Shown here: positions 46,640 through 50,484 of the stretch, one piece after another
How positions within the stretch are numbered: position 1 is the stretch's first letter
How the letters are laid out: the number at the start of each line of letters is the position of its first letter
From: Lysobacterales bacterium
GTDB lineage: Bacteria > Pseudomonadota > Gammaproteobacteria > Xanthomonadales > SZUA-5
Assembly (NCBI GenBank): GCA_022844135.1
Contig: JALHMG010000006.1
Coordinates: forward strand, 62,001-126,000
DNA: 64,000 bases
Direction of reading: 5' to 3'
Made by a program: the position numbers and the translations under genes
Notes under the pieces: model-generated
Told to the model about the DNA's origin: nothing
What the model saw: only the letters and a program-made list of their open reading frames with translations
Databases searched by the model: none

Positions 46640-47056
46640 ATGTGGCAATCTGCTGAAACATCGTTGACTGGCGTGCCGGCGTTCCTGGCGTACTTTACGC
46701 TGGCGCTGGCGTTGACCTTCTTGTACTTGTACCTGTACACCCTGCTGACGCCGCAGCGCGAGTTCACGCTGATCCGTTTAAACAACAGCGCCGCCGCGAC
46801 GGCGCTCGGTGGCTCACTGCTCGGTTTTGCGCTGCCCTTGCACGGCGCGATCACCAATGCCATCAGCCTGGTCGATTGTGCGCTCTGGGGCCTCATTGCT
46901 CTGGCGATTCAAGTTCTCACTTTCCTTGTTTTGCGACTGGTGTTGAACGGCTTGCCCGACCGCATCGCGCGGGGCGAGCAGGCCGCGGGCACCTTTGTCG
47001 CCGCGGTGTCGATTGCGGTGGGTCTCTTGAACGCAGCATCGATGACGTATTACTGA
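46640..47056 (+). CDS. DUF350 (YjfL-like) membrane protein
   Basis: 138 residues with four transmembrane helices. FLAYFTLALALTFLYLYLYTLLTP, NSAAATALGGSLLGFALPLHGAI and GEQAAGTFVAAVSIAVGLLNAASM are typical of DUF350. Function unknown. Confidence 0.87.
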   Translation: MWQSAETSLTGVPAFLAYFTLALALTFLYLYLYTLLTPQREFTLIRLNNSAAATALGGSLLGFALPLHGAITNAISLVDCALWGLIALAIQVLTFLVLRLVLNGLPDRIARGEQAAGTFVAAVSIAVGLLNAASMTYY

Positions 47057-47237: not shown

Positions 47238-49136
47238 ATGCCAGCACCACCAGGAGTTTTCGGCCCACTCGAGGTCCCATTGGCGTTTGGGCTGCTGCGC
47301 TTGTCGACCGAAGGTCGCCCGGCGATGCCGGACGCGATAACAGTGATCCATCGGGCGCTCGATGGTGGCGTGCGTATTCTCGATACGGCGGACTCGTACG
47401 CGTTGTCTGACAACGACCTGCACTACGGCGAGTCGCTGGCGCGCGCGGCCGTCGATCGCTGGCATGGACCCCAGGACGAGGTGCGCATCGTCACCAAGGT
47501 TGGCATGGCCAGGCCCAAAGGCCGCTGGATGCCTAACGCACGCCCGGCGCATCTGCGGAAAATGGTCGACGGCAGTCTGGTGGCGCTTGGCGTCGAGCAG
47601 CTCTTCATGCTGCTGTTGCACGGCAACGATCCAGCCACGCCCTTCGAAGATAGCCTGGGCACGCTTGCTGACTTGCAGCGTGCGGGCAAGGTTGTGCATC
47701 TTGGTTTATGCAATGTCGATGTGGCGGAGATTCGTCAGGCGCAGCGGCATTTCCAGGTCGCGGCGATCCAGAACGAGCTCAGTGTGATCAACCGCAAGAG
47801 CGCGGCCGAAGGCACGCTGGAGCTGGCGCGGCGCGAGCAGATCGCATTTTTCGCGCACCGACCGCTCGGTGGCCACGCGAAGACCGATACGTTGGAAAAG
47901 AATCGCGCGATGAAGCCGATCGCGACCGCGCACAAAATCACGCCGCACCAGGCCGCGCTGGCCTGCCTTCTCGATATCGGCGCGCCGCTGCTGCCGCTGT
48001 TCGGCGCCACCAGCGCGGCGCATGTCGATGCCTCGCTGGCCGCGCGCCAGATTCGGCTGTCGGAGAGCGATCGCAAAGCGCTGGCGGAGAAAATCAGCTT
48101 CGATGCCAATACCGAGGGCTTGGCGTCGCTCGATCCGATCCCAGTGCCAGCAGCGCCGTTGAGCGTCACCGCCGCGCCCGGCCAGTCGCCGGAAGTCGTC
48201 ATCGTGATGGGTATTCAGGGCGCCGGCAAGTCAACGCTGGTGCAGCGTTATGTCGACGCGGGCTATGAGCGACTCAATCGCGATCTGATCGGCGGCACGC
48301 TGGAAGACTTGCTGCCGCTGCTGGAAGCGCACTTGCGCGCGGGGCGCAGGCGCGTCGTGCTCGACAACACCTATGCGACGCGCGCCTCGCGCTGGTGGCT
48401 GACTCGGGTGGCGCATCGGAATGGCGTGCCGGTGCGCTGTCATTATCTGGCGACGCCGCTCAAGGAAGCGCTGATCAACGTCGTGCTGCGCGTGCTCGAT
48501 CGCTATGGCGCCTTGCCCGGCCCCGATGAGCTGAAAGAACTTGGCAAGAGCGATCCGAATCTGCCGCCGCCCGGCGCATTGGCGCGCTTCGCGGCTTGCT
48601 TCGAGCCGCCGCAACCAGACGAAGGTTTTGCGGCGATTGAAGAAACGCCGTTCGTGCGCGTTCCAGGGCCAAGCCTGGGCGGCACGCAGAAAGCGCTGTT
48701 TCTCGATGTCGACGGCACACTCAGAAAAACCCGAAGCGGCGAAATCTATCCGCGCGACCCCGACGATATCGAGGTGCTGCCCGGGCGCGCTGCGGTGTTA
48801 CAGCGCTATGTCGAGGAGGGTTGGAAGCTTTTCTTTGTTTCTAACCAAAGTGGCGTCGCCAGCGGCAATGTCACGCGCGAGGCCGTGCAGGCTGGCTTCG
48901 AACGGACCGCAGAGCAACTGGGTGTGCCGATCGCCGATATCGCGTTCTGCCCACACAGCGCGTTTCCTGCTGGGTGCTTCTGCCGCAAACCGATGCCCGG
49001 TTTAGGCGTCTGGCTCGCGCGCAAGCACGGGTTGTCGTTGCAAGACTCCATTATGGTCGGCGACATGGACAGCGATCGGCAGTTCGCCGAAGCCATTGGT
49101 GCCGACTATCGGGCAGCCGATGCGTTCTTTGCTTAG
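47238..49136 (+). CDS. Aldo/keto reductase - P-loop kinase - HAD phosphatase triple fusion
   Basis: 632 residues in three parts. (1) Aldo/keto reductase barrel, about 1-300: ILDTADSYALSDNDLHYGE (Asp and Tyr), VTKVGMA (Lys) and LLLHGND (His) are the catalytic tetrad. (2) P-loop kinase, about 315-460: Walker A GIQGAGKST at 325-333, then RLNRDLIGG and VVLDNTYATR, like polynucleotide-kinase domains. (3) HAD phosphatase, about 485-632: FLDVDGTLRKT with Asp490 and Asp492, FVSNQSGV, and a GmhB/HisB-like zinc loop (CPHSAFPAGCFCRKP). Kinase then phosphatase is the order in T4-type polynucleotide kinase/phosphatase. The reductase fusion is unusual; a joint nucleic-acid or sugar-phosphate substrate is speculative. 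Confidence 0.9.
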   Translation: MPAPPGVFGPLEVPLAFGLLRLSTEGRPAMPDAITVIHRALDGGVRILDTADSYALSDNDLHYGESLARAAVDRWHGPQDEVRIVTKVGMARPKGRWMPNARPAHLRKMVDGSLVALGVEQLFMLLLHGNDPATPFEDSLGTLADLQRAGKVVHLGLCNVDVAEIRQAQRHFQVAAIQNELSVINRKSAAEGTLELARREQIAFFAHRPLGGHAKTDTLEKNRAMKPIATAHKITPHQAALACLLDIGAPLLPLFGATSAAHVDASLAARQIRLSESDRKALAEKISFDANTEGLASLDPIPVPAAPLSVTAAPGQSPEVVIVMGIQGAGKSTLVQRYVDAGYERLNRDLIGGTLEDLLPLLEAHLRAGRRRVVLDNTYATRASRWWLTRVAHRNGVPVRCHYLATPLKEALINVVLRVLDRYGALPGPDELKELGKSDPNLPPPGALARFAACFEPPQPDEGFAAIEETPFVRVPGPSLGGTQKALFLDVDGTLRKTRSGEIYPRDPDDIEVLPGRAAVLQRYVEEGWKLFFVSNQSGVASGNVTREAVQAGFERTAEQLGVPIADIAFCPHSAFPAGCFCRKPMPGLGVWLARKHGLSLQDSIMVGDMDSDRQFAEAIGADYRAADAFFA

Positions 49137-50484
49137 TGTGCGCTGGTCTGCGACTGTATTGTTCGCGTTGGCTGCGAATGCTGCCGCTGCGCCGCGGCTC
49201 GATTACACCGCAACCATCGATAGCCAGACCGAAACGCTGACGCTGCAGCTCTGTAGTGCGAATGCGACGACGCTCGATCTGCGCGGCGCGGCGCAGTTCG
49301 CCACGCGGATCGAAACGCCGACCGGAGACGTCAGGGTCGAACGACGCGTTCGTGTCGTGCTCCCGGACCATGGCTGCGCGACGATCACCACCGATTTGCG
49401 CGCGGCAGGGCAAGCCGATCGTTATCGTCTGGGCCGCGAGCGCGGCCTCTACTATCGACTCGCCGCCGAACAATGGCTATGGCGACCCGCCCACATCGCC
49501 GCCGACAGCACGCTGCGATTTCGCCTGCCCAAGGCATGGTCCGCATCGGTGCCGTGGGCCGAAAATCGCGGGGTATATCGGCTCGGCGCCACGCCGTCAG
49601 GCTGGCCTGCGCTTACTGTATTCGGGAGATTCGAGGTCGAACGCGTGCCAGTACCTGGCGGAGAGTTGCGCCTGGCAATGCTCCCCCTCAGCGACACCGC
49701 GACGCGTGCCGCCATGCACGAATGGCTGGTCGACAGCGCACGACGCTACTTCGCAGCTGGCGGACTGCCGGTCGCCAACCCGCAAGTCCTGGTGGTGCCG
49801 CTCCCTGGCGTCAAGAGCGCTGTCCCGTGGGGCCAGATCCAACGCGGCGGCGCGCCGGCGGTGCATTTGTACGTGGGCGCGGAGGCGGGCGGCGACGCCT
49901 GGCGCGAGGACTGGACGCTGGCGCATGAGCTGGCGCATCTGCAGCACCCGTACTTGGGCGAACGCGGCCGTTGGCTTGCGGAAGGATTGGCCAGTTATCA
50001 CCAGAACGTGTGGCGCGCGCGCGCCGGCGATCTGACCGCGCAGGCGGCGTGGCGCAGACTGCTCGCCGGCTTTGCGCGCGGCCGCGCGGTGGCCCCCGGC
50101 GAGCAGTTGGCGAGCATCGAGCGCGGCTGGAGCAACACCATGCGCGTGTACTGGAGCGGCGCGGCATACTGGTTCGAGAGCGACTTGGCGATGCGCGCAG
50201 TCGGCTCCAGCCTCGATGAGGTGTTGCAACGTTATCGCCGTGCCGGACTAGCTTTGGAGCGACGTGTCGAACCGGCCGATTTCATTGCCGCGCTGGATGC
50301 CATCGAACCTCGAGGCGGCCTACGCCGCCGATACGATCAGTACCTGGCGCTGTCCAGTTTCCCGCCGCTTCTTGAGGCGCGCGCAGCATTGATACTCGGG
50401 GCACCAGAGTTGTGGCCAGACGAAATGCCCGATCATCCGTGGCTTAAGGCAATTTTTGCGCCGCAGAAGGAGCACGCACTATGA
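49120..50484 (+). CDS. Secreted M61-like HExxH metallopeptidase
   Basis: 454 residues with a signal peptide (MRSLLSVRWSATVLFALAAN...). Zinc motif HELAH at 269-273 and Glu288 in WLAEGLASYHQN, the gluzincin arrangement of M1/M61 peptidases, but the N-terminal two-thirds are not a standard M61 domain. ATG at 49120 overlaps the fusion gene by 17 bp. Followed by a coupled 46-residue membrane protein. Extracellular or periplasmic peptidase; target unknown. Confidence 0.82.
   Translation: MRSLLSVRWSATVLFALAANAAAAPRLDYTATIDSQTETLTLQLCSANATTLDLRGAAQFATRIETPTGDVRVERRVRVVLPDHGCATITTDLRAAGQADRYRLGRERGLYYRLAAEQWLWRPAHIAADSTLRFRLPKAWSASVPWAENRGVYRLGATPSGWPALTVFGRFEVERVPVPGGELRLAMLPLSDTATRAAMHEWLVDSARRYFAAGGLPVANPQVLVVPLPGVKSAVPWGQIQRGGAPAVHLYVGAEAGGDAWREDWTLAHELAHLQHPYLGERGRWLAEGLASYHQNVWRARAGDLTAQAAWRRLLAGFARGRAVAPGEQLASIERGWSNTMRVYWSGAAYWFESDLAMRAVGSSLDEVLQRYRRAGLALERRVEPADFIAALDAIEPRGGLRRRYDQYLALSSFPPLLEARAALILGAPELWPDEMPDHPWLKAIFAPQKEHAL

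Follow-up and report, generated by a model that had tools for sequence, protein, structure and literature searches.

The window analysed here is a stretch of 64,000 nucleotides from a Lysobacterales bacterium (positions 62001-126000 of contig C6 in a 5.34-Mb genome that is 99.83% complete). At 47238-49136 on its forward strand, it carries a single open reading frame (ORF) of 632 residues that encodes an aldo/keto reductase (AKR), then a P-loop kinase, then a HAD phosphatase. This architecture and its active sites are conserved among relatives, the kinase and HAD are kin to the polynucleotide kinase-phosphatase PNKP, and a single gain or loss of the AKR suffices in the tree. The protein is probably a stand-alone enzyme for the healing of nucleic-acid ends. 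More tentatively, we propose that its AKR reduces the 5'-aldehyde of C5'-oxidised strand breaks. We infer each of the catalytic steps, as well as DNA rather than RNA as the substrate.

Pfam finds the three domains, and no other, in the window protein. An earlier note on this DNA, made from the sequence alone, had described one 632-residue chain with these domains, a reductase with its catalytic tetrad and a P-loop kinase with the motif GIQGAGKST. The ORF and the Pfam matches bear out the chain, the motif lies at residues 325-333, and D49, Y54, K87, and H128, which we take to be the AKR catalytic tetrad, are all present. Structure prediction, which the note had suggested as a check, gives one well-ordered protein (AlphaFold2 with 29 aligned copies; predicted local distance difference test [pLDDT] 91.9, predicted template-modelling score [pTM] 0.89), and the model predicts a fixed arrangement of the three domains. 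We could exclude a chance fusion or an assembly joint because the full chain recurs in other genomes: a sister genome has it at 83-84% identity, and 27 further aligned copies are 38-69% identical.

Uniqueness to this assembly, which the note had named as a refutation, does not apply: 26 of the 30 loci found in one scan of genome contigs are full-length fusions, from at least five phyla by record title. The remaining loci are two truncated copies (L028, L030) and two one-domain matches (L032, L033). By title, the carriers are Lysobacterales, Sorangium, Nannocystis, Polyangia, Pirellula, other Planctomycetota, Verrucomicrobiales, Lentisphaeria, and unplaced bins. We also searched phylum samples with the kinase-HAD part, each centred on a genome that was picked for carrying the gene and is counted in. 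This part is found in 21 of 235 genomes around a Sorangium genome, and the whole stretch in 3 of 294 around a Pirellula genome, along with one contig-edge fragment (the other matches at the same threshold are HAD or nearly so). The centre genome itself is the only carrier around a Verrucomicrobiales genome (1 of 194), as is the window genome in its own phylum (1 of 398). When the window genome and 40 relatives were searched for the whole protein, 5 of the 41 had it, all within the window's family, where it is present in five of nine genomes. This patchy spread suggests horizontal transfer. Among plasmids, 1308 records match and none covers 80% of the query. One bin titled Klebsiella pneumoniae (L010, CAMAXZ010000020.1) looks wrongly named: in both its kinase-HAD and its AKR region, the fusion it carries does not differ from that of G480, a genome of the Sorangium-centred sample, and both copies lie on contigs of 78,849 bases.

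Site conservation was assessed in an alignment of 59 rows representing 57 distinct genes (L010/L089 and L020/L061 are the same contigs), from which we dropped L034, as it duplicates L004, and both truncated copies (L028, L030); L032 and L033 were not used. The AKR is borne by 52 rows (50 distinct genes), and its tetrad is intact in all of them. The kinase residues K331, R348, D349, and R385 are intact in the same 52 rows and in all 59 overall, while D376 is intact in the 52 and lost in the AKR-less L101. As T378 is replaced there as well, the kinase of L101 is perhaps dead or altered. Of the 52 AKR-bearing rows, 43 have an intact HAD site (D490, D492, T494, K584, D609) and 50 have intact zinc ligands; two fusions (L102, L103) have lost the zinc ligands and kept the catalytic residues.

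The nine fusion rows with a dead HAD (L031, L104-L108, L111-L113, from the Sorangium-centred sample and a Polyangia bin) form one clade, with support of 100/99 in the kinase-HAD tree and 100/98 in the AKR tree. None of the four zinc ligands is lost in them, and their AKR tetrad and kinase residues are likewise intact; L112, which is cut by a contig end, has no motif I. A tenth dead HAD (L100), whose N-terminus is cut by a contig end, falls outside the clade. Three genomes (G342, G412, and G571) each carry a live-HAD and a dead-HAD copy, the pair of G342 being L102, without intact zinc ligands, and L112. The earlier note had named mutated kinase and HAD sites in relatives as a further refutation. 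It applies in part: the kinase sites hold, except in L101, and the HAD sites fail in 9 of 52 AKR-bearing rows, all in one clade. In that clade the AKR and the kinase have both stayed intact, which is consistent with, and does not prove, serial action of these two domains on one end while the HAD acts on the other.

Purifying selection acts on each of the three domains. Compared with L004, its closest relative, the window shows nonsynonymous divergence (dN) of 0.152 in the AKR, 0.064 in the kinase, and 0.103 in the HAD, with synonymous divergence (dS) ranging from 0.92 to 3.2, which is close to saturation or beyond it. Across 29 rows, identity to the window averages 57.9% in the AKR, 63.3% in the kinase, and 60.2% in the HAD, against 25.9% in the linker between AKR and kinase. 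The linker has a dN of 0.77 relative to L004, with dS beyond measure, and dN of 0.67 and 0.74 relative to two other relatives, with dS of 1.4 and 2.4. It is thus much less constrained than the domains, rather than free.

In the PDB, the best match of the kinase is mammalian PNKP. With kinase and HAD searched as one stretch, mammalian PNKP ranks first with both the window sequence (phmmer, 1.4e-30) and the family profile (1.6e-39); the next kinases in the profile search are fungal (4e-8). TIGR01663, the PNK-3'Pase equivalog model of NCBIfam, matches with 3.5e-32, below its whole-protein cut-off. By VIA-align, mPNKP reaches Z 19.3 for the kinase (2.0 Å over 154) and Z 19.2 for the phosphatase, HisB reaches Z 19.2, and the Clostridium thermocellum Pnkp kinase Z 16.0. 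T4 Pnkp (1ltq) has the kinase-then-phosphatase order that the earlier note had recognised in the window chain and aligns over both domains with Z 14.6 (model residues 6-318), but with a root-mean-square deviation (rmsd) of 11.9 Å, which implies that its domains are arranged differently. The window protein is not an orthologue of animal PNKP: the kinase precedes the HAD, a zinc loop is present, and there is no further Pfam domain, whereas an FHA domain is part of animal PNKP.

In the HAD, the DxDGT motif is followed by a loop, T-x-S-G-x-x-[FY]-P, that aligns without gaps with the one in mPNKP. All three of T, S, and G occur in 43 of the 49 rows with a live HAD, and the aromatic residue and proline in 48. 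We compared these with 29 other HADs, 27 matches of the Planctomycetota search and two from the window's genome, of which a fragment (L064) does not cover the loop. None of the other 28 has TxSG, and 26 have a zinc loop, the exceptions being the two from the window's genome. With its PNKP-type loop, and a zinc loop and overall similarity of GmhB type, the window HAD thus combines features of both. Its earlier description as a GmhB-like HAD with a zinc loop is right for the zinc ligands (C571, H573, C580, C582) and the overall similarity, but the loop that follows the nucleophile is PNKP-like. We did not accept it as a true GmhB: the specific GmhB and HisB models of NCBIfam stay below cut-off for the window protein, and it has DVDGT with TxSG instead of DRDG, although the HAD alone still scores best against GmhB. 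Two viral HADs occur without a kinase and without a full zinc loop (L050 703-1245, PNK3P 1.5e-22; L051 5998-6516, 3.3e-19); by eye, the former adjoins ORFs resembling DnaB and SbcCD.

Judged by its TIM-barrel fold, supported by Pfam and Foldseek, and by its D-Y-K-H tetrad, the N-terminal domain belongs to the aldo/keto reductase superfamily. Its closest solved relatives by sequence are AKR13B2 (8hnq) and the pyridoxal reductase PdxI (8te8). The fused AKRs group apart from 11 stand-alone AKRs in the AKR tree (100/99). L032, a short fragment from Bifidobacterium that sits on a long branch and fills 35% of columns, falls within the fused group.

Kinase-HAD proteins without the AKR are found in two huge phages (LR756511.1, LR756500.1), two IMG/VR contigs (L132, L133), and two genomes of the Sorangium-centred sample (L094, L101). 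The viral label of L132 rests on the collection, and its upstream ORFs look transporter-like by eye. Three further rows (L097, L099, L100) are without an AKR because their contigs end there. One phage kinase-HAD copy matches the PHROG family 'polynucleotide kinase' (4.1e-7); the window protein matches in PHROGs only a family of unknown function, in the AKR region. Viral scans gave HAD-only relatives with the kinase-HAD query and none with the AKR or the L048 phage protein. We built the origin tree from 58 rows, after removing two repeats and adding L132 and L133. The six AKR-less rows all lie on one side of a branch of moderate support (84/89), so that one gain or loss of the AKR suffices; it counts as a gain only if the tree is rooted on the viral side. 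A more speculative proposal, which we hold with less assurance than the 5'-aldehyde substrate, is that a direct-reversal enzyme for oxidised breaks (5'-aldehyde reduction, 5'-OH phosphorylation, 3'-phosphate removal) had a single origin, probably in Myxococcota, in the joining of a reductase to a phage-type PNK-HAD, and spread from there to other phyla.

How would such an enzyme work? Given the homology and the intact sites, it would, like PNKP and T4 Pnkp, add a phosphate to a 5'-OH with its kinase and take a 3'-phosphate off with its HAD. The AKR, presumably NADPH-dependent, would reduce a carbonyl arising from sugar oxidation, preparing ends that the kinase and HAD cannot handle. The most economical substrate would be a C5'-oxidised strand break, in which one side bears a nucleoside 5'-aldehyde and the other a 3'-phosphate; it fits best because what its ends require is reduction plus phosphorylation at the first and dephosphorylation at the second. 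The AKR would turn the 5'-aldehyde into a 5'-OH, the kinase would turn this into a 5'-phosphate, and the HAD would convert the 3'-phosphate into a 3'-OH. An ordinary DNA ligase could then seal the break with no nucleotide lost. Passages of PMC3950721 describe most neocarzinostatin lesions as single-strand breaks with a 3'-phosphate and a 5'-aldehyde, and report that the aldehyde was reduced by borohydride to a 5'-hydroxyl before treatment with PNKP and other enzymes. In an excerpt of a 2012 review, the resolution of 5'-aldehyde ends is called essentially unknown (PMC3825254).

Several observations weigh against a 5'-aldehyde at a DNA break as the substrate. The AKRs of known structure that come closest are PdxI, AKR13B2, and perakine reductase, and no AKR known to us works on a polymer end. 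The HAD alone retrieves two GmhB-type proteins (1.3e-16, 8.5e-16) ahead of PNKP (7e-14), its VIA-align match to GmhB is Z 20.8 (1.9 Å over 147), the histidinol-phosphatase subfamily model TIGR01656 is just passed (2e-25; 89.4 bits for a cut-off of 84.15), and six of the 49 live-HAD rows (L096, L097, L098, L102, L103, and the phage L048) are without the TxSG loop. When the neighbours were clustered, no family occurred in more than 5 of 31 loci, nor in more than 4 of 34 loci (17 common to both sets), though Pfam was run on the window's neighbours only, and a repair gene beside a single copy could be missed. A LexA box (Escherichia coli consensus, 7 of 8 bases) was found in 0 of 29 upstream regions, defined by approximate start sites, where shuffling gives 2.4. 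Of the 29 bacterial genomes with the fusion that were searched, 14 have a match to the RNA ligase family PF09414, and the contexts in phages hint at RNA. Finally, part of a review (PMC12564780) reports that long-patch repair handles 5'-aldehydes in vitro, so a dedicated enzyme is not required.

Some of these observations would suit an enzyme whose three domains successively reduce, phosphorylate, and dephosphorylate a small molecule (a free sugar, a nucleoside, or a vitamin-B6-like aldehyde) in salvage or detoxification. The AKR is near PdxI and AKR13, the HAD alone is slightly nearer GmhB than PNKP, and no neighbour is common to the loci. Yet the kinase is nearest to polynucleotide kinases, the PNKP loop separates most live HADs from other HADs (43 of 49 and 0 of 28), and AKR-less relatives occur in phages, one with an RNA ligase nearby; we thus regard this role as unlikely. 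The earlier note had proposed a reaction on a damaged nucleic-acid end or sugar. The nucleic-acid end is favoured over the free sugar because of the kinase-then-HAD order, the PNKP-type kinase, the phage relatives, and the one phage RNA ligase nearby; the AKR substrate we only infer.

The phage relatives also raise the question of RNA. The fusion could heal ends of tRNA or other RNA after cleavage by toxins or oxidation, with an ATP-grasp RNA ligase sealing and the AKR treating oxidised ribose ends. The kinase-phosphatase order is of T4 type, the phage relatives lie in genomes with RNA ligases, and part of a review of jumbo phages links PNK-HAD to RNA ligases (PMC7824862). In L133, the kinase-HAD gene immediately follows one for a calcineurin-type phosphoesterase, and 1.4 kb downstream lies an RNA ligase (PF09414, 3.1e-14); the viral cluster at L133 5301-9273 also includes a weak DHH match, below cut-off. 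Both huge phages encode an RNA ligase away from the kinase-HAD gene, and none was found near it in a Pfam scan of 69 of 97 ORFs from about 49 kb around each gene, among the 25 families listed of 93. Among bacteria, the PF09414 carriers contrast with 15 of the 29 fusion-bearing genomes that match neither PF09414 nor PF09511, including all five carriers of the window's family (80 to 99.8% complete). The absences in the window's family point there to DNA. Nevertheless, some of the assemblies are incomplete, the search covered PF09414 and PF09511 but not RtcB, and PF09414 also matches 6 of the 14 genomes used as controls, among them E. coli, so that the pattern is only suggestive. We consider RNA repair quite improbable as the function.

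Alternatively, the AKR could act on another carbonyl at a break (an open abasic site, a 3'-unsaturated aldehyde, or 3'-phosphoglycolaldehyde), with the rest as in the 5'-aldehyde scheme. Parts of two reviews list these as known products of sugar oxidation or abasic-site cleavage (PMC3825254, PMC12564780). Their reduction should, unlike that of a 5'-aldehyde, yield no substrate for the adjoining kinase or phosphatase, and loss of the HAD site has left both the AKR and the kinase in place, so we give these substrates little weight. It is very improbable that the AKR is a general aldehyde detoxifier merely tethered to the other domains without a common substrate: substrate sharing rests on no direct evidence and the linker is variable, but in several phyla both halves are inherited together and the sites of AKR and kinase are preserved, and the three-domain model has a high pTM (0.89).

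The features of the gene are given in the table below. Directly upstream lies a gene for a DUF350 protein (46640-47056, forward strand; Pfam 1.1e-36). The next ORF (49096-50484, forward strand), with an ATG near 49120, overlaps the end of the fusion gene, which makes translational coupling of the two possible; its product has an M61 peptidase match below cut-off and an N-terminus that resembles a signal peptide by eye. Defence-system models gave no match for the fusion and two neighbours, and a promoter scan found 0 where 0.5 is expected.

Features of the fusion gene, in coordinates of the window
Feature	Coordinates	Strand	Basis
Whole fusion gene, 632 aa: AKR / polynucleotide-kinase-like P-loop kinase / HAD 3'-phosphatase-like	47238..49136	+	ORF, Pfam, recurrence, model
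AKR domain, residues 1-290	47238..48107	+	Pfam Aldo_ket_red, residues 15-285, 6.3e-43
AKR tetrad span, D49, Y54, K87, H128	47382..47621	+	Intact in 52/52 AKR-bearing rows
Linker, residues 291-313	48108..48176	+	Mean 25.9% identity, poorly conserved
Polynucleotide-kinase-like P-loop kinase, residues 314-475	48177..48662	+	AAA_33 6.6e-14 (Pfam); TIGR01663 3.5e-32, below cut-off; mammalian PNKP match
P-loop GIQGAGKST, residues 325-333	48210..48236	+	Sequence
HAD phosphatase domain, residues 484-632	48687..49133	+	Pfam PNK3P, residues 488-632, 4.6e-10, above cut-off
HAD motif I DVDGT and PNKP-type loop T498-x-S500-G501-x-x-Y504-P505	48705..48752	+	Alignment
Zinc loop C571-x-H573 ... C580-x-C582, GmhB/HisB type	48948..48983	+	Alignment

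No AKR-PNK fusion is named in the titles or abstract openings among the literature matches listed, nor in passages of PMC10809525 and PMC7159879; an earlier mention elsewhere, for example in Burroughs and Aravind 2016 on RNA repair or in papers on PNKP structure, is possible. The literature searched contained no assay, expression, or knockout data on the fusion. One chain holds candidates for the three steps that were carried out in the test tube with borohydride and then PNKP, as excerpted from PMC3950721, and the 5'-aldehyde question is therefore directly testable with one recombinant protein. Should the substrate differ, the fusion is still a conserved joining of redox chemistry with end healing.

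Among known systems, Deinococcus DRB0098 resembles the fusion in being a bacterial PNK with an unusual partner. It lies in a radiation-induced operon, according to portions of PMC1997131 and PMC1274311, which place an HD rather than a HAD phosphatase before the kinase and name no reductase. The AKR13 family and PdxI have the same fold as the window AKR and 30-33% identity to it, but are free-standing; AKR13B2 has the aligned tetrad residues, and PdxI is without the histidine at the aligned place. The GmhB and HisB phosphatases share the C-x-H ... C-x-C zinc loop with the window HAD, align with Z 19-21, and provide the best match of the HAD alone, whereas they have a DRDG motif, and TxSG is absent from all 28 other HADs, 26 of them with the zinc loop. 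T4 Pnkp and the jumbo-phage PNK-HAD proteins have the same kinase-then-HAD order and no AKR. By eye, the zinc loop is present in four of four viral relatives and the TxSG loop in two, while T4 Pnkp is a weak sequence match (E 0.0056) with differently arranged domains (11.9 Å rmsd). The best solved relative of the two-domain stretch is mammalian PNKP, a bifunctional 3'-phosphatase/5'-kinase (1yj5, 3zvl, 3u7e-h) with homologous kinase and HAD, which shares the TxSG..[FY]P loop and the FEPP..EGF motif at the C-terminus of the kinase. In PNKP, however, the HAD precedes the kinase (1yj5) and has no zinc loop, whereas the window protein adds an AKR in front.

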